Of a stretch of 34,099 nucleotides of DNA, positions 3,701-32,171 are shown in pieces. The notes beneath the pieces were generated by a model. That model was not told where the DNA came from. It did no database searches and saw nothing but the letters and a program-made list of their open reading frames with translations. Position 1 is the stretch's first letter; every line of letters starts with the position of its first letter. The position numbers were made by a program, and so were the translations under genes. The stretch is from the NCBI RefSeq assembly GCF_000003605.2, contig NW_003119925.1, positions 26,612-60,710 of the forward strand, in the 5' to 3' direction. The DNA is from Saccoglossus kowalevskii (lineage: Eukaryota > Hemichordata > Enteropneusta > Harrimaniidae).

Positions 3701-6700
3701 GAAGAGTTTCCTGGAAATGAGTTATTCCGAACCACACCACTGGGAAGTCAAGATGACAGTTTTCTGCAGACGCAAGAATCAACAGAAGAAAAGTAAGAGT
3801 TATTCATGTGAAAGTGATTTATTTCTGCGGTTTGGAAAAGCCACTTATTTCCGTGGTTTGGGCCACCGTTGTTTGTTTGACGTACTTTACCAAATATCAA
3901 ATTTCAACATTAGCACTGACTTATTATCCCAAGGCTTTATTTTTATAAGAGCCAGTGGAAATGTTGTAAAAGCTTAGATGTATTTTTTTTTCTCCTAAGA
4001 AATTTACTTGCTTAACCCCAAATATTAGACATTGTCATGATGGATGTCTCATTTGACAGACTTATTTTAATCTACACGCCAATTTATGCCACTTAGATCT
4101 CCATGGATACCACTATCACTAGTGACAAAATCATGTGCCATGGAGAGATATATTTTAAATGGTATTCATACACAATATTTCTGGATGAGAATTGGAATAA
4201 TTGAATAATGCTATTATGTGTCATTTACTTGTTCACAGTTCAGAGTCTCTGGAACCAAGTTCTGAACTGAATAAAGAAGAGATCCGTGTGTTGAACACAT
4301 TAAAGGCTGTGTTTCTTAGTAAGTAAATTCCAGGCTTTGGTATGACTTTTTAAATCCTAACATTTTCCACTTTAAATTTCTGTGAATTATTTTTACATCG
4401 AACTCTGTAAAAATACTAGCTGCTCCAAGCAATGTTAAATCAACGACAGTTTAGACAGATACTTTAACATCTTCAAAATGAATGCTTTAATACCTATTTA
4501 CTTAGTGCTATATACAGTAAATCTCATAATTTTCTTTTAAATATTACAGGTTGGCATGACGACGATGAAGGTCCCATCCCTGCACCAATAGAGCTATCAC
4601 CAAGTACTATGAAATCAACTAACCAAGAAGATGACATTGTTAATGATGTTTCAAAACAACAAATCTTAGTCCAATATCTCAAGGTATTGTTTTTTCTATA
4701 ATACTGGTAATAGATTTTTTTCCTTATTCTCTTCACCTCACTTGTCTTCAGCCTCAATCTCGGACACTGTAACACAATATTTTCTAGATTTCTGAAAGCA
4801 AATAAACAAGTATGCCATAATTTCTAAGATAGTATACAGTAATTAATTCAAAAGCTAACTTTGAATTCTACTCTATTATGATAAATTACTAGTGACAAAT
4901 ATAGCTCCATTTAATTGAACACGCAACCTATGAAAATGAGATTGAAATTAATAAAAAAGGGGTGCTGATATAAAATAGAATTTTAGCATTTTAGCATTAC
5001 CCTGTACAGTATTTACAACAAACTGTTTGAGGACATATAAATAGTTTGTTATAGTGAAGTGTTCACTATAATGAATTACATGATACATTGGATTTGTTAT
5101 GAGTGAGAGACGTGCAATATCTCCTGCTTGCTTCGCATTGAATTTTGAAAAAGAAAAACATTTGAAATGTCAGTTTCGTTTGCAGTTCGACAAATTTAGT
5201 GACACTCTAAGATACCGAAAACTCGATCATAACTGAATTTGCATAAATGCTTGGCAATGTTCAACTGCAAACAATTCCACATAACCAGATATATTGCGAA
5301 TACTGTTACATTTTACATATGACACATACTTCTCATACATTGTTCAACATAAGCTATTAATAATATACAGATCCAATACTGTAATGCCATTTATTTTCAC
5401 TGACATTTAATTCACCTTGTTTTTTAATTTCATGAATTTGTCAAGGAAAATGAGTTATTTTACATGTTCATGTAGATTTAATTTAGCGACTTTTTCCTAT
5501 CAGACAAAATGAATAGCAAAATTAGAATCCAGTGAATGATTAATGCATTTACAGTAGTGAATTCATACATGCATGTGTTTCTAATAGAGCAATTATTTGT
5601 GAAACACTGGTAGTATTCTCATATATGCCTCCTCTGATTTCAGGATTGTGTCTCCTTTGCAAGTCAAATACAGACAGCAGTACCATTGATTTGTAAATTA
5701 TTGAGTTCTAAAACTCCGTCTGATGTTATGGAAGCCATTGATTTTTTTGTCACTGCTTTTGAATTTGGTGTGAGTAATTCCCTGGAAGGAGTAAGGCAGA
5801 TGTTAGCGTTAATCTGGTCTAAGGAACCCAGTGTAAAGGAAGCTATTGTTGCAGCTTACAAGAGACTCTACTTGAATACTACTGCTAACAATAATAGGTT
5901 GGTAATAAATACAAGAGACATAATATTACTAATTAAGAATGTATGGTTGATATGAATTAAGCCAATGAAAAAAATCATGCACTTCTGATTTCAACTTTTT
6001 AAGATAGTTTAAAAAGTGTATAATTGTTGATTTAGACAAAAGTAATGAACTTTTGTAGGATGCCATACTTCTCAAGAAATAGATGAAGGGAAGATAAAGT
6101 CGTAGTGGTGAAGTGTCTAGTGTTGGGCATCATGAACTAATCTTATAGAGATTTTTTGCCTTCTTTCAGCATTTTCTTTGATTTCCTTATTACATGTACA
6201 ATGTATGTCAATTTGTTATCAATGGAGAGCGCCCTTCAACCTTTTGTTCAATAACTTCAATGTTATTATCAACAAATATCTACTAAAATTGTTCCGTTCA
6301 TATGCTGTGATCTTCCCTATTCTTTTGTAGTACATCTTATGCTGTGATCTGTCCCACCAATGTAATGATCTGTCCACCCTTACATATACAGGGCAAACCA
6401 TGTGATAGTATTTTTATTAAACCAATCAAATCTACAGACAACAGCTGGCCCTAATGAGATATTACTATTACTGTAGCTAGGTATTAGTGAATTGGTGTAT
6501 TGCGAGTGATATGCCACATTCATGTTATTATAAGAAACCTGAAAACTCACAGACTGCACTGTTTAATTTCCTTTTTTACAGAGCTCAATCAGTGGCTGTT
6601 GTTAAAAACCTGACTGCACTGATTCACGGAGCCACAGTTGGAGAGTTGAAATCACTGGAAGCTTTGGTAATGGAGTTTGTAGAGAATCAGGAAATCAACA

Positions 6701-9700
6701 ACAATGTAATACAAGTATTATGGGAAAGATTTACTCTAAAGATTCCTGGTACCTCAACAGATGAGAGTAAAGCTGCATTGCTTTTGTTAGCAATGGCTGC
6801 CAAGTAAGTAGTATTTTATCAAAGGCCCAGTTAGTTATTCCAGCAGTTGATCAGTGCAATGTAATGATCCTTGCTATAGCAAATTGTCTGAAAAATGAAT
6901 TCAAGAAATAAAACCAGTTCAAGCAGTTCATTCATTAATTCTTTGAAACAAGGTACACTAATTAATGCAATTGTTTTTTGTTTTTGTTTTTTACAGAAGC
7001 GATGTTAACGTAGTACGTAGTAACATTGATGTTCTTGTTAGCACTGGTTTATCAGAGAGAGCCCATGATGACTTTATGCTTGCCAGAGATTCATGTATTG
7101 CCTTGCTTAAACTCATACAGAAAAAAAAGGTATTTTTTTGTCATACTGAACATTCCTTGAAAATTTACTTTAAATGAAAATGGCTTTGAAGATCTCTGAG
7201 ACTATTCTCAATGCTCCATTCTCTATGTCCAATGTTTACCTCATGAAGGATGGAATGCTATTTGAGGTCTGAGATACATTCTATTTAACATTTCCTTTCT
7301 GTAAATTGGTCTGTGACTTACATTTTTTTTTAATTATTTCAGTTCTTTTGTAAGCAAGATGGGGTTTTCTGAATTGTGGTGCACCTTTAATTAGTGCCTC
7401 TTGCAGTTCTGTACTGATTATGGTTTAATGGTGACAGCAATTAATTTATATCATTCAAATTGTGGGCTTATAGTTTTTGAATGAGCTACTACTTCATACT
7501 AGTTATTGGTTAGAATGTTGCTGCAGTTTAGCAGCTCTTATTGGCTGCTTAAGCTATTTTGATATTACGTCGCGGCCATAGAGCTGCAGATCGCGTCCAT
7601 TGAGAACCGCACAGTTCGCCATCCCGGGGCGCACGCTATTTTTGATGTTATCGAACGATTTCAATGAAGTTTAAGACGAATAAAAGTTATCCTTGCAAAC
7701 ACAAACATCTTAGGTATCTACTGACCGAAAATGAAGGACTATTTCTTCTTGAAAAGTATATATTTCTGTGTATAATTAGACCGAACGTAATTTAATCGAT
7801 TGAACGACAGGATTTCAAGATGACCTCTGTCATGTGACCTGAGCACATGACAATGACGAAGCATGCGCAGTTTACATTTTAACTGAAAATTGAGAATGGC
7901 AGGTTCTTGTATTCATTGTGGAGATGAGTTCCAGAAGAAAGTTAAAGGGTATCGCAGGCAATCCATTGCATCTAGACTTAAAACCTCAGAAACTGTTGAC
8001 AATGCATTAGTGAATGTTCTAAAGCTGAAACCCATTACCCCGTTGGCTTGCTGTCTCTTTCCGCATAATATTGAGGAGCATTGGTGGTAAAATATACATC
8101 ATGCTTTTGCCATACCCTGTTGGTAATGTGGCCAATGTGTGTATATTATTTAAAATACAAGTAGTACCTTCTACTTGTTGAGCTTTTAAGTCAAATTTAA
8201 AAATATGGTCAAAAGACTCAACAATTTTGTCCTTTGTCAATTCCATGCTGTCTGCTCCTGTCACTTGTTACACCCGTTGGCAAGTTACAAGATTATTTTT
8301 AGATTTTTCACACTATATAAATAAAACTGCTTAAAACAATATTTTTAATAATACATGTACTTTATTTGAGTCACTTAATGGTGAAATGAAATTAAAATTA
8401 TAAAAAGCCATCTGTCGTTGTTTCGTCACATAAAGCGCTGTCCCAGACAGGCGCCGTCTGCTTTAGTCACGCGATTACACTCGTCACTAAAAGAGCCAAG
8501 TCACGTGATAGAGGTCAGCTTCAAAATGGCGGCGTTCAATCGGAGGTTTCACTTCGGCACAGTTTTAACGTGAAATAGTCTCATTTACACGGGCAAATTT
8601 GCTTAAAGCTTGCTGTAATCAGTAACAGATATATTTGTGAGAACATATTTGTCTATTTTTTCCTGCAAGTCGAGGTAATTTTATTACAATCACAATTTTA
8701 ACGATACATAACTGGCATATTTAAAAATCTGTGCATTTCTTTAGGGAAGGGAACTGCAGCTCTCTGGTCGTCCCGCAACGTATACCACGACCAAGAGAGC
8801 TGCATAAACTGCAGCAAGTTAGAATGCTGTTCACCCTCTCACCACCAGTTTCCTTTTTTCATCACAAAATAGTCCTGTTTATACATGTAGTCTGTACTTT
8901 CTTCCTTCAGAAGATTGGGACAAAAATAGCCAAATTTTGAATAAAAATTGAAAATTTTGTCTGATGGCTCCAAAATTAAGGTTCATTTCCAGAATTATTG
9001 AAGAATATAAGAAAATAGTGCAGAAAAATCTTGACAAGAAAGTCTAGTGGTGAAAGGTTAAAATGATATACGTAGAAGACTGGAAAGATGAATTGACATG
9101 TGTATTATTTGTTCACAGGTCAAAGGTGGAGAAGCGGAAGAACCATTTCGTTTCCCAAAAGATCATGAGATGTTTGATAAATTAACAGAATTAATTGTCA
9201 AGGGTAAGAAACATGTCTCAGTCTTTCAAATATTTGTATAGACACGGGATAGAATAGGGAAGCATATGTTGGTTCATGGAAATATGTTATGTTTAATAAT
9301 TGTAATGTGAACCCCTCCCTGATTCAACAAATTTGGATAATTTGTGCTTAAATTGATTATCAACAAAATTTAGTTGAAAGCACTTACAATACTGAAAAAA
9401 TTAAACTGTAAAGTTGTCATCGTCCTTGAATACACCGGTACAGTGATTGAAACTGGATATATTGAGCTATTTATAATTATATACCGGTATTGTCTTCACT
9501 ACATTAAATCCTGTCATGCACAGCTACTAATGTAGATCACTAAATTGTTTAAGAATTAATTACGTCACTCCTTCACAGTCCAAACTGAGAAAGCCTCATA
9601 AATGGCTGCATGCTAAGACTTATAGTTTTGCCTGCTCAGTTTTAACCCAATAATATTTACAAATCAAATTCTTCAAGTTACTGTCTCAGGATACATATAT

Positions 9701-12700
9701 AATGCTGTACAAGCAGGAACATCCCTGTATTTTCTTCCCTTTTAATGTTCTCTTAAATGCAGTGGCAAAATAGCCTAATAATATAATAAACTCAAAAGTC
9801 TGGTGCGCATTTCAAATTAATCTTAATGAAAGAAGTTTTGCATTAAATATTTTGTGGTTCTGATCTTCAATTCAATGACATACTAAGATGCTGAAAACTC
9901 AATTATAACAAAGTTTACAGAACTGCTTGATTTTCAGCTATTAACATGGTTATCTTGCAAATACTTGCATTTATTATATTATGTCTATTGCTTGATATGT
10001 CAGAGCCTTCAAACAAAGTTTTATACAACAATATAACTACAACTTTAATATTTTTTACAGCAAAAAAGATAATTTTATACTGGATTTAGAACTTAGTGGT
10101 TTGAATTCCCTTCAATATATTGTGTAAACATATACTCCATAGACATATACTCCATATTTTGTTATCCACTATGTTTTGTTGTTGTAGGTATTAGTAAATT
10201 AGATGATCCATTCTGGGTGCCCATGACAGAACAAGCCATCAATGTTATTTATAGACTTGGTGAGCAGCCTGACATTCGATGTGCAAGTATAATAAAACAG
10301 CTTATAGAAGTTGTTCTTGGAGACAGTGAACAAGGTAACAGACAATTTGACATGTTGTAGTAGTTCTATCCCCCTTTACATGCTACCTAGTTTATGGTGC
10401 TATACACCAAATAGGAGTGACTTGTATTACGGCCAAGTATTATTTTCCCTTCAGTTCCACAGTCCACTTCCAGCAAAACAAGGAACATTTCATATTGTAA
10501 AACACAAAAAAAAAACTATGTCAACAGAGAATTTTAAAAGTCAATAATCACTGACACAAAAAAAGAGTCTGTGTAACCTGTAATACTGAGACTTGCTTAC
10601 TTTAATTCCAAATAAAATAAAGTAATCAACACTAACTTGAATTTCAAAGCAGATGATCTCAAGAATGTGGAACCGAAATGTCATCCTCGCGTATTAGCAC
10701 GATTCCTGGCCTTTGCTGGACACGTGGCTTTCCAACAACTCTACTACTTGGATGTGAGCATGCTTGGAGAACTGAAGCGACGCCGTAATATCCAAGACAA
10801 TAGAAGAGAGGCTGAGAAAAACAAGGCAGCCAAAAATAAGCGTAAATCCAAGGTAAGTAATTGCTGGATTGCGAGTGTAAGATGCAGTGGATAACATAAA
10901 TGTTGTCAAACACATCAATAGGTCTTATGCATGACCCCTGAAGGTCACACATCCTGGTACTTTCTGACCCCTAAAGGTCACACATCCTGGTACTTTCTGA
11001 CCCCTAAAGGTAGTAGTTCCAGTATGGGGGGAAAAAAATCTTGGAAATCCAGGCAGTTATGGCTACTAAATGAAATATGGCCTAATTTATCTTGCCACAT
11101 ACCGGTTGTTGAGGTTGGATTTCCAACAGTATGACTAAAAAAACTTGGAATTCTGGCTGTATATGGTAAAAATATTGGGCCAGTATGAAATAGTTATTAC
11201 TGAAATTAGATAAGGATGGTGGCACGAATGAGCTCATCAATACCGTGAATCAGGACTAGTTTGGATTTCCATTGTCAAATATAAAATTTTGAACTTAGTA
11301 AATTAGCATATAAGAGTTATATTTGGAAATCCTACTCTGTATGGTGTCACAAAGAAACTCATCAACACCATAAGTAAGAAACTATAGTTTTGGATTTCCA
11401 TTACTGTATGGTGAATGGTGATTTGGAAATAAAACTTTGTATGACTTATACACCCATGGAAATTATACCCTGTATGAAGTAAACACACAAGCTCATCAAC
11501 AGGGGGGGGGGGGGTGCAGATATAAACTGGAATGGCCCAATGTTGTACCTAATTTTTTGCCATATAGTTTTTCAATTTTAATGCTTACATTGTGTCTGTA
11601 ATAGATGTGAATGCCCGCCAAGCAGCAAATTGTCCACCTAATAGTTTTCCACTCTCTCCTGTTGTCAAGTCTACTGTTCCTGTGATCTATGTAACCATGG
11701 CATTTAGAACAGTGGTTGTGATGACAGGAGAAATCAAACATTTGAGACAAACAAATTTTTGTGGTTTTCTCACTCTCAATATGATCTAAATAGCCAGTGT
11801 TTGGGCTTAATGATTAATAATGTGAATTTGTCTCCTCACAAAGTCCTAGGATGTGTGACTGTTATTGGTGATGCATTGGACTTATTATATCAAGCAATCT
11901 GTTTGGAGCACTAATGTAATTCAATAAAATGTAATGGAAATATTTCTACAAATTGGTATTCATTTCTATATAATTATCACAATAATCATTGTTTAAATCA
12001 ATAAGATATACATAGATTTATTTGATAATCATACATATGCCAAAATATATCCATGTCTGTTTTGGTTTGCCTATTTGTGAGAAGGATTTTCCCCTTGTGA
12101 CCAATTGATTTGATTTGGGTAGAGGTCAAGATACAGTTTCCATGGATATGGGGTCCTTTGGAAGGATTTTTCAATTTTCACCATTGCCAGCTAGGGTAAA
12201 AGTATATATAAAACTATATATTATAATATCTAATGCCATACCTTGTACAAATTAAGTTTCAGATACAATAAGGTACATAGCTTTCTAGATATTAAAAATG
12301 ATTTTTAACAATGTAGAATATTTCTATCTATACTGTAGGATGGCAATGAACCAAGCATGGAGGAGGATATGGGTCTGACTGGGGCTGTAGCTGATGATGC
12401 TGAAGCCGAATATATGAAAAAAGTCCTTGATACTGAAATAGTGACTGGTAAACAGACTTTTTGAAAAATATTTACTAATTTTTGTGAGAGTTGGATAATT
12501 TTTTTTAAATTTATCACTAATGTTGAACGAGACCTATAGCAAATATGAAAATATGTTCATTTCATACAAAACTAATAAAGGAATTACAGAAAAATGCATA
12601 AACATGTTGTAAAAAGTTACTGGCAAAAAACGCTATACATAATTTAAACTTTTTTTAATATTCCTTTGATGCAGGTAATAGTTTACTAGCAATGCTGTCA

Positions 12701-18700: not shown

Positions 18701-21700
18701 TAATTATTACATACAGGTAGTACATTTCAAAGATTCAATGTTGCAGATAAAATATTAGAGATAAAAAAAATTGAATAGACATTTCAGTACAAAAATAAAT
18801 TTACCTCTAAATCTAACAAAACAATTTTCAATATTCCAGTAACTTACATTCACAATAATGAAAGTATGAACAAATTACATGAAAATCATAAATTATTGTT
18901 ATAAATCTCCATAATTAAATAGTGTTTAAATAGTCATTAATATTTTTTATGATTCGACTATCACGAGTAATCCTTGGTTTACTCCAGAATATCTCTGTTA
19001 GTTGGTTGATATTTTGACAATGGTGACACTCAACATGTAAAATACCTCCTAGACCATATCTGGTTTCTTTTTTACAAAACATGAGTGACAATGGTCCAAA
19101 TGAGCAGTAACGGCATTTTTCCAGCCCCTCAGCTAAAACAGCCAATTCCACAACTCTCCGGCCGTCCTGCCAACTTCGACTCGCTGGTATCGGAATGCTG
19201 TTTGTCCCTGGCGTGCTGTTATTTTTCGTAGGAGAAGCCGTATGATGATCATTACTTGCTAGGTTTACGTCGGCATCAATATTTTCATTACCTACATTGC
19301 ATAAAATGCGATTCATGGCATAAACATCATTTTTATCCGGATCTACGTAACCACCAGCGCTCGGGACAGTGTCACTGTCATTGTTGTTGTTACCGTTAGA
19401 CTCGGACTCGGTGATACTAACCCTGGTACTCACCACATCAGGGCTTACAAAAGTAACTCTCGCGTCGCTAATTTCATCGGTAATCAATTGTTTACAAGGA
19501 GAAGCCACAAATAGCCTTCTTTTCCCAACTTTTTTCAGTTGGTGCGGTTTTTTCCGAGAAGAAAACTTCCCTTTAGCGCATCGAGAGGCCGAAAAAACTT
19601 CACGCGACGCCATATTGGAACAGCATAACTGCTTAAGCTTAGGGTGTCCGACTTTCAAGTGTATTCAATATCGTTGACTTTTACGCGCACTTTTACGGCG
19701 AATGCCCGCGAACGACCTTAACGCTAGCTTTTAGCTGTATGGATTAATGCTAGCTTACAATTGTGCAGAATAATTCTGCCTAAATACTACAAAGAATATG
19801 TTGAAACTATTGGTCACAATGATACTCACTTTAAAAATGATAAGTTTTGATGATAGTTTTCGAAAGTTGAATTACACTGTACTGTATGCTAATATGCCCA
19901 AATATTTCTTAGAGTAAATGTAAATCCCTTTTTAGCCCTGACTGAACAGTCTTGGAGCTTATGGATTAGGTTCTGTCCATCTGTTCAGAAGTTCTCTCAG
20001 AAGTTCATGGACCAATATTCCCCAAACATGGTACATGGTTAATGCATGATGGTATACATATGTTTTTTTTCTGTTCAGATACAAACAGGGCTGACTGTCG
20101 GCCATATTGGATTCAAAAATAACCTAAAAACCTACGTATTATATATGTAGAGCGTAATCTCTAAGTTGTGCTTGCCCATTCTGTTCAATATCGGTGGCAG
20201 ACTTTTCAGATTTTTCAAAATTGGACGACTGGTGGCCAACTATCGCACAATGCACTATAACTTGGAATTGCGATATATGTTTTGTATTTTGTCAACATAG
20301 ACATCAGAGATTCACACATGTTAAATTGTCTGGCAGTCAAATTCATTAGTTCACTGTAGAACTGGTACATGGACTTGATCAAAATGGAGCATAGAAATGT
20401 TATATATGGAGGAACAAGGGGTTGTGGCATTTTTAGTGCTTGTATCCAATTCATTGGCAACTGCTTGTTTTGTTTTATTTTGAAAAATAATAGAAAGTAA
20501 TTTAATTTGTATATGACCTTCAGATGGTACAAAGCTTATTCCGATAGAAAAATGTTCTTTTACATAACAATCCAATTAGACGTTAGAAAAAGTCATAAAT
20601 TCTACTGAATTTAGTATGAAATGTCAGTTGTCATGGATGTTTGCATTTTGTGTAAACAAGTAATTTTCATATGTTGTATGGGGCCCACGTCGAACAAGAC
20701 ATGGTGTGACAACTGTCACTTTAATGATTGCTTAATGTTTATTATAGAACTGATCGTCAAGTACGAGACCTGGCATTTTGTTTAGCCATGTTAAACTACA
20801 GTGAGAAGGGCATACGAAAGTTACAAGAAAACTTTGTATGTTTCGGTGATAAACTGGCTGATGAAGAGGTTTATAACTGTTTCCAAAATGTCATTACAAA
20901 ATCTAAGAAGTTTGCTAAACCTGAAGTAAAGGTAGGTTTATCAGTACATCATTATAAAACTACTGTATTTATTCTATTAGTAGCAAATAAGATTATATAA
21001 ACAATAAATGTGACTATTGTCTTAATAAGTTACCGTACTTATCCGGGTAAGAGCCCATGCCTGGGCAAACGCCCACCCCCCACTTTTGACACAATAAAGG
21101 AGTTGAGGTCATATCTGGGCACACGCCCAGGGGGTCTTTTTCTACACAAAAAAAAAATATTTTCTATTCGTTGACTGTGGTTGTATTAACAGTTGACTTT
21201 CTTGAAGTCTGTCGTGATACTTATAAAAATTGTTAATTGCGTAAAACAAGGGGTGAACGCAAAATAGCTGTGACAGCCTTCTGCCTTCAGGGCAGCGCGT
21301 TCTGAATCATAACAGTCAGCAAGTCTATAAAAATATATATTAAGCAGAAACGGTAGTTCTCTTTTTGAAATATGTCATGGCCCTAAAAATGGCCGGCCGT
21401 TTGGTTTGTGCTTCCTTAGAAACGATTCAGGCAAATCGTATAAGAGAGCCGCAAGTGTCGCACTCGTTCAGCTTTAGCGCCGCCGACAATAAAACCAATG
21501 TTGCAATATTGTAGCAACCCGTACCTGGGAGAGTGGTTGAAATCACGTTATCNNNNNNNNNNNNNNNNNNNNNNNNNNNNNNNNNNNNNNNNNNNNNNNN
21601 NNNNNNNNNNNNNNNNNNNNNNNNNNNNNNNNNNNNNNNNNNNNNNNNNNNNNNNNNNNNNNNNNNNNNNNNNNNNNNNNNNNNNNNNNNNNNNNNNNNN

Positions 21701-28626: not shown

Positions 28627-28705
<79 letters not shown>
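28627..28705. repeat. (AT)39 microsatellite
   Basis: 79 bases of perfect alternating AT. The tyrosine/isoleucine open frame across it is not a gene. Confidence 0.98.
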
Positions 28706-31509: not shown

Positions 31510-31625
31510 GGTAAACGTCTTGGTGACGTGACCGTTTCATTGTTCTAAGAAGACGCACTGACGACCATAGCTGTTATCTGTACCTGTTGAAAACATGTAC
31601 AAAATACATACATGCATATACGACG

Positions 31626-32171
31626 ATGATTGATGAAAGCGAATTTGTGTACGAATCATTGGATGACAATCTACGTAGCCATGGTAACATCCAATCAATG
31701 ACAACCCGAGAGTTCCCGCGCATGAGAATGAACATGACAGACGACGAGTCGTGCCGAAAGAAAACGGACTGCTTAGGAACTGTTGCTATGGCATGCATCG
31801 TTATTGGTGTACTGGGGGTTCTCGTTGGTTATTTAGTTCCTCGTCATACAAGTGCTAATCCAAACACAACGCCAGCTAGAGTTTATGAAAAATTAGATAA
31901 CTATTACGCCAATTTAGGAAAAGGGGCAAACATTAGTATAATGGTTGGATTGTGTTTTTTGACAACTGGGGGCGTTCTTATGTCTGGGCTTCTTTTCTGG
32001 TCAACGTGGCAAGTACATCGACAAAGAAGCGATAGTAGGCACGGTAGTAGGCACGGTAGTAGGCACGGTGGTGGGCATGTATCACAGGAAACGCAAGCCG
32101 ATAGGACGAGACTAATGGAAGCTGATGACAGCGAAATGCATTATGGGAGTACACAGAATGATGCACCATAA
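31626..32171 (+). CDS. TMEM74: TMEM74-like two-pass membrane protein, 181 aa, single exon
   Basis: The start is the first in-frame ATG, 31626 (MIDESEFVYESLDD); the frame runs further upstream only to a TTG. Residues 50-71 (GTVAMACIVIGVLGVLVGYL) and about 103-126 (ISIMVGLCFLTTGGVLMSGL) are hydrophobic membrane spans. Between them VPRHTSANPNTTPARVYEKL matches the YIVPR-x(6)-NP..N-x-x-AR-x-x-E.L pattern of TMEM74/TMEM74B, and the second span matches their GLCLLTLGGV. Both ends should face the cytosol. Vertebrate TMEM74 is linked to lysosomes and autophagy, and its coding region is intronless, as here. The tail holds an SRHG repeat and an acidic end. The N-terminus is shorter than in vertebrates. 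Whether it is the common ancestor of TMEM74 and TMEM74B cannot be told. Confidence 0.85.
   Translation: MIDESEFVYESLDDNLRSHGNIQSMTTREFPRMRMNMTDDESCRKKTDCLGTVAMACIVIGVLGVLVGYLVPRHTSANPNTTPARVYEKLDNYYANLGKGANISIMVGLCFLTTGGVLMSGLLFWSTWQVHRQRSDSRHGSRHGSRHGGGHVSQETQADRTRLMEADDSEMHYGSTQNDAP
32031..32069 (+). repeat. In-frame 12-bp repeat coding SRHG
   Basis: GGTAGTAGGCAC is repeated three times, the last unit with GGTGGTGGGCAT, encoding SRHGSRHGSRHGGGH in the cytosolic tail of the TMEM74-like protein. Translation of the complementary strand gives YRAY repeats, which is only a shadow. Confidence 0.9.

Follow-up and report, generated by a model that had tools for sequence, protein, structure and literature searches.

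A non-autonomous DNA transposon of Saccoglossus kowalevskii, most likely related to AcademH, whose longer relatives carry facing helicase and DUF6589 genes

Within the window (the whole 34,099-bp stretch of Saccoglossus kowalevskii DNA analysed here), positions 7518-8817 hold a 1300-bp DNA transposon, an internally deleted, non-autonomous copy bounded by terminal inverted repeats (TIRs). We consider it probable that its parents possessed two convergent genes, one for a DUF6589 protein and one for a RecQ-type helicase, and that they belonged to AcademH, the likeliest of the groups compared and one known here by its description, not by its sequence.

Ends, target-site duplication and copy family

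The outer inverted repeats are perfect over 13 bp (TTGCTGCAGTTTA at 7518-7530, with its exact reverse complement at 8805-8817), and directly outside them lies GTTAGAATG, an exact 9-bp target-site duplication (TSD) with its left copy at 7509-7517 and its right copy at 8818-8826. A preliminary description of this DNA had placed TIRs and an exact 9-bp duplication at 7509-8826, enclosing facing CxxC and RecQ-like gene fragments, and it was right about these features and their positions. Helitrons, to our knowledge, have neither TIRs nor a TSD, whereas both are present here. When the window was scanned for inverted 13-mer pairs within 6 kb, only one of 761 had a 9-bp flanking duplication, namely the element's own pair; the corresponding count in 40 simulated windows (order-1 Markov) was 0 of 385. 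Chance matches appear at looser settings, including a 10-bp/7-bp pair at 2648-2713 and pairs in a TA microsatellite near 28635 of the window, and at the 10-bp/6-bp setting 8 of 20,004 pairs score in simulated windows.

The left TIR (7518-7590, plus strand, on the side of the CxxC gene) consists of the outer repeat followed by an inner palindrome with arms near 7531-7538 and 7580-7587, while in the right TIR (8749-8817, minus strand, on the helicase side) the inner palindrome forms a hairpin when folded; the two ends are similar in their inner parts, each with a second, internal inverted repeat. The motif T-N-GCTGYRG opens the ends of three families, that of the window and two others found in longer relatives (C3001/C2545 and C374, see below), and an inner AGAGCT arm occurs in five of the six ends read, the C2545 end being without it; mean column identity across the ends is 48%. 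In DNA folding, the right end of the window element was more stable than its shuffles (z -5.48, 0 of 200 as good), and the same held for both ends of C374 (z -6.42 and -4.93) and for a 114-bp copy (z -9.75). At the C3001 end the hairpin is less pronounced (z -1.71), and neither the left end of the window element (z -0.92, 36 of 200 shuffles as good) nor the C2545 end (z 0.26) exceeds shuffled sequence. We accordingly no longer treat the inner hairpin as a constant feature of these ends.

The search for TIR copies with 9-bp duplications that the same description had proposed was run over 572,110,611 bases of genome DNA in 4830 contigs. The element has at least 62 matches, from which loci were cut out for the best 30 (L001-L030; L014, L015 and L024 repeat places already listed). 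Matches to the left end, starting from base 1 of the element, recur in the genome at 88-98% identity. Requiring both termini with at most 2 mismatches in 13, 15 distinct copies qualify among the best 30 loci, and 12 of these 15 have an exact 9-bp duplication (a spurious pairing, L009 111-2843, was left out of the count). The other three have a 10-bp duplication (L004), a match at 7 of 9 positions (L020) and no duplication (L029). L004, on C502, is a 1.3-kb copy within a GT microsatellite, and its 10-bp duplication is ambiguous because the copy is inserted in the GT repeat.

Besides the window element, the best 30 of the at least 62 matches include three full-length 1.3-kb copies (C2917, C1417 and C502), which are 93-94% identical to it, or 96.9-97.7% when columns with gaps are excluded. 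All four have the same fused interior, indicating that one deletion derivative multiplied. A further element, C4771 (1343 bp), shares these ends and differs over most of its interior. Ten further copies among the best 30 loci are only 103-176 bp long and contain little beyond the two ends, showing how little sequence still got copied. Among the genome matches, the window's own family is not represented by any complete copy.

Facing gene fragments and their longer relatives

Inside the element, the CxxC gene start reads on the plus strand from 7896, and the frame with helicase motif I (LPTGYGKS) reads on the minus strand over 8264-8019. The CxxC start, truncated at 7896-8043 (parent-derived to about 8043 by eye), matches exons in the longer relatives C481 (58%, E 9e-6) and C2545 (41%, E 0.0013). 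The truncated helicase start occupies 8046-8264 and is 81% identical in DNA over 217 bases to another relative, C2074. By eye, the helicase similarity to that relative (L062:7617-8009) ends after RKETAS near 8046, and the CxxC similarity ends near 8044; the window element is therefore a pair of gene starts fused by an internal deletion, with its junction at 8040-8048.

The preliminary description had called the minus-strand frame RecQ-like. In protein databases the fragment itself gave weak matches, to DEAD (E 0.0052, below the Pfam cut-off), RecQ4 (E 0.011) and RecQ (E 0.13); the exon in C2074 runs past the stop of the window fragment, and there (L062:7617-8009) RecQ4 is matched at E 4e-7. 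Scans of viral contigs with both fragments found no relative, and tblastn against phages gave weak helicase matches (best E 0.3). Further helicase pieces of C2074 (L062:4472-4690 and 3804-4082) match C3001, and part of this similarity extends to C481 and C374. At its right end, C2074 is 95% identical to the window element. C2074 comprises the helicase side only, broken by LINE-like ORFs (by eye), and with no left end reported it was dropped as a complete parent, as was C4456, which runs into a stretch of N.

In C481, helicase exons lie on the plus strand (895 onward, and 3811-4275), whereas the minus strand holds the CxxC exon together with one for DUF6589. Here Helicase_C is matched on L055:3781-4284 (E 1.2e-9) and DUF6589 (PF20231) on L055:8081-8371 (E 7.1e-7), both over their cut-offs. 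Convergent helicase and DUF6589 or transposase-like matches occur in seven contigs (C481, C374, C3001, C2545, C1306, C4505 and C14), and no same-strand pair was seen among the contigs examined. The helicase piece of C1306 clearly belongs to the RecQ family (Bloom helicase, E 3.9e-15), while both pieces in C4505 carry a stop. The preliminary description had envisaged a parent with a helicase and a CxxC protein read from opposite ends; the convergent layout holds in all seven contigs, and the CxxC exon is found beside the two genes only in C481 and C2545, in each case on the DUF6589 strand.

The association was also counted from each side. A facing transposase or DUF6589 match is present in 6 of the 11 contigs with a C481-type helicase match (C481 included), with no facing partner in C167, C3574, C1873, C4451 and C2074. 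Four of the five contigs that match the C481 DUF6589 exon (again including C481) have a facing helicase, C595 being the one without. Among nine DUF6589-family contigs, two (C1306 and C14) contain a helicase, six showed none in the 3-4 kb stretches read, and C1343 was left out of the reading.

The DUF6589-side gene is multi-exon in the longer relatives, and we infer that the CxxC and DUF6589 exons form one gene, encoding a putative catalytic transposase. C481 and C2545 have in common the acidic residues of the motifs WDNV, GD(G/Q) and DGE, a pattern that fits a putative DDE enzyme. Compared with solved structures, a 329-residue DUF6589 piece gave only weak zinc-finger matches.

Two relatives provide information on the ends of longer elements. 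C374 (L057:1529-8379) has 414-bp TIRs at 94.4% identity, flanked by GGTCACACA and GGTAACACA, which are alike at 8 of 9 positions; its ends were placed by eye because an exact scan for duplications of 7-12 bp gave only an unrelated 7-bp pair. This copy has an extra tandem piece at its left end and a stretch of N in its interior. One family is represented by two partial copies, C3001 and C2545, which share two stretches at 99.2 and 99.8% identity; the left end of one matches the right end of the other in inverted orientation (617 bp at 98.5%), and neither copy shows both of its ends. C481 yielded no convincing terminus, the 9-bp pair that agreed best on its inner side having 7 of 13 bases alike and being among a dozen such pairs. 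Within the transposon relative of C481, a long minus-strand ORF consists of near-identical GPSGDIGHGSTVGYT-type repeats (L056:143-1630). C481 also contains a minus-strand retroelement ORF, gag-like by eye (L056:3981-7106), whose end recurs inverted across the relative at L055:317-409, either by nested insertion or as an assembly artefact.

Assignment to a known group

AcademH elements are reported to encode a helicase, to have TSDs of 9 or 10 bp and to occur in animals and fungi (Kojima 2020, Mob DNA 11:15, as cited in PMC10045372; the description is also cited in PMC8290104 and PMC12210899). The present family agrees with that description in its helicase (truncated in the window, longer in L062 and the other relatives), in the 9 or 10 bp duplications of the copy set and in its animal host, and membership in AcademH is therefore likely; it differs from AcademH as described in that the window holds a non-autonomous copy. 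A connection between the helicase and nuclease of AcademH and AcademX and the lengths of their TSDs has been remarked on (PMC10045372), and helicases of AcademH and KolobokH are reported from fungi (PMC10799480). The preliminary description knew of no group with this facing layout and a 9-bp duplication; that no known group joins a helicase to such a duplication is not supported, given the account of AcademH, and the description's suggestion of an undescribed parent type is now the less likely reading.

That suggestion could still take the form of a superfamily unrelated to Academ, with a DUF6589 transposase, a convergent RecQ helicase and 9-bp duplications. In its favor, no link between DUF6589 and Academ was found in the literature searched; nevertheless, AcademH as summarized in PMC10045372 already joins a helicase, 9-10 bp TSDs and animal hosts, and we regard a separate superfamily as unlikely, if the best placed of the alternatives. 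A more elaborate version, in which the transposase and the helicase of such a superfamily would act together on ends that can bear a nested hairpin, the helicase opening or extruding these palindromes ahead of insertion at a 9-bp staggered cut, is if anything a shade less probable.

A Mutator-like element (MULE, Phantom or Rehavkus) that captured a helicase is improbable. Such elements share with ours the possession of TIRs and duplications of 8-11 bp, often 9 bp (MULEs 8-11 bp, Rehavkus 9 bp; PMC6446971), a range into which the copy set falls, and the window contains a Mutator-like transposase fragment elsewhere (18915-19658, minus strand; PF20700, E 3.4e-6, just over the cut-off). The main text of PMC6446971 does not use the word helicase, and a helicase and a DUF6589-type gene recur jointly in diverged families. 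When seven pieces from the transposase side of C481 were compared with Pfam, none matched a MULE family at E up to 1, and one of the seven is over the DUF6589 cut-off, the window family's own transposase being seen as a start only.

KolobokH is a still weaker candidate. Kolobok duplicates TTAA, whereas 12 of the 15 both-ended copies here have 9-bp duplications of varied sequence. What the two have in common is the RecQ helicase, which in Kolobok-1_CCri, a DDD/E transposon, is encoded on the complementary strand; this is a precedent for a transposon with its helicase on that strand, and the same source describes KolobokH as found only in fungi (PMC9587614). Least probable of all is that the fragments are pieces of two unrelated host genes caught between TIRs, the case that the preliminary description had named as fatal to its own proposal: RecQ helicases do occur as host genes, but both fragments recur together with matching ends in three other copies, and their longer relatives adjoin in convergent orientation in C481 and C2545.

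Genomic setting and proposed mechanism

The element is inserted about 1.5 kb downstream of an exon at window 5686-5955 that matches condensin complex subunit 1 (E 1.4e-7). Since two ORFs, at 10637-10894 and at 6487-6807, had no match among solved chains at E 0.01, we place the element only provisionally in an intron of the condensin subunit 1 gene. Elsewhere in the window, a plus-strand ORF at 31587-32171 resembles Neurensin/TMEM74 (E 3.1e-6, just below the Pfam cut-off), and a weak plus-strand match to FAF1 at 20728-21000 (E 0.0015, below the cut-off) is possibly a host exon. Within the element, positions 7861-7870 and 8524-8538 resemble, by eye, what we take to be NRF1 and YY1 promoter sites; they lie ahead of the two starts, as though there were a separate promoter at each end.

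On the AcademH reading, the parents would have had two convergent genes that start at opposite ends and run toward the middle, the first encoding a DUF6589 protein whose N-terminal part holds a CxxC module, taken as the transposase, and the second a RecQ-type helicase. In the likeliest course, the transposase would drive insertion at a staggered cut of 9 bp in the target, which would yield the 9-bp duplication, and the helicase may act in opening the ends. The internal deletion kept both gene starts and the sequence preceding them, joined tail to tail, and the short copies presumably depended on proteins supplied in trans by longer relatives. If DUF6589 is the transposase of an Academ-type element, this would assign a role to a Pfam domain whose function is unknown, and the families with facing genes found here could then be used to study why RecQ helicases should be encoded by a DNA transposon.
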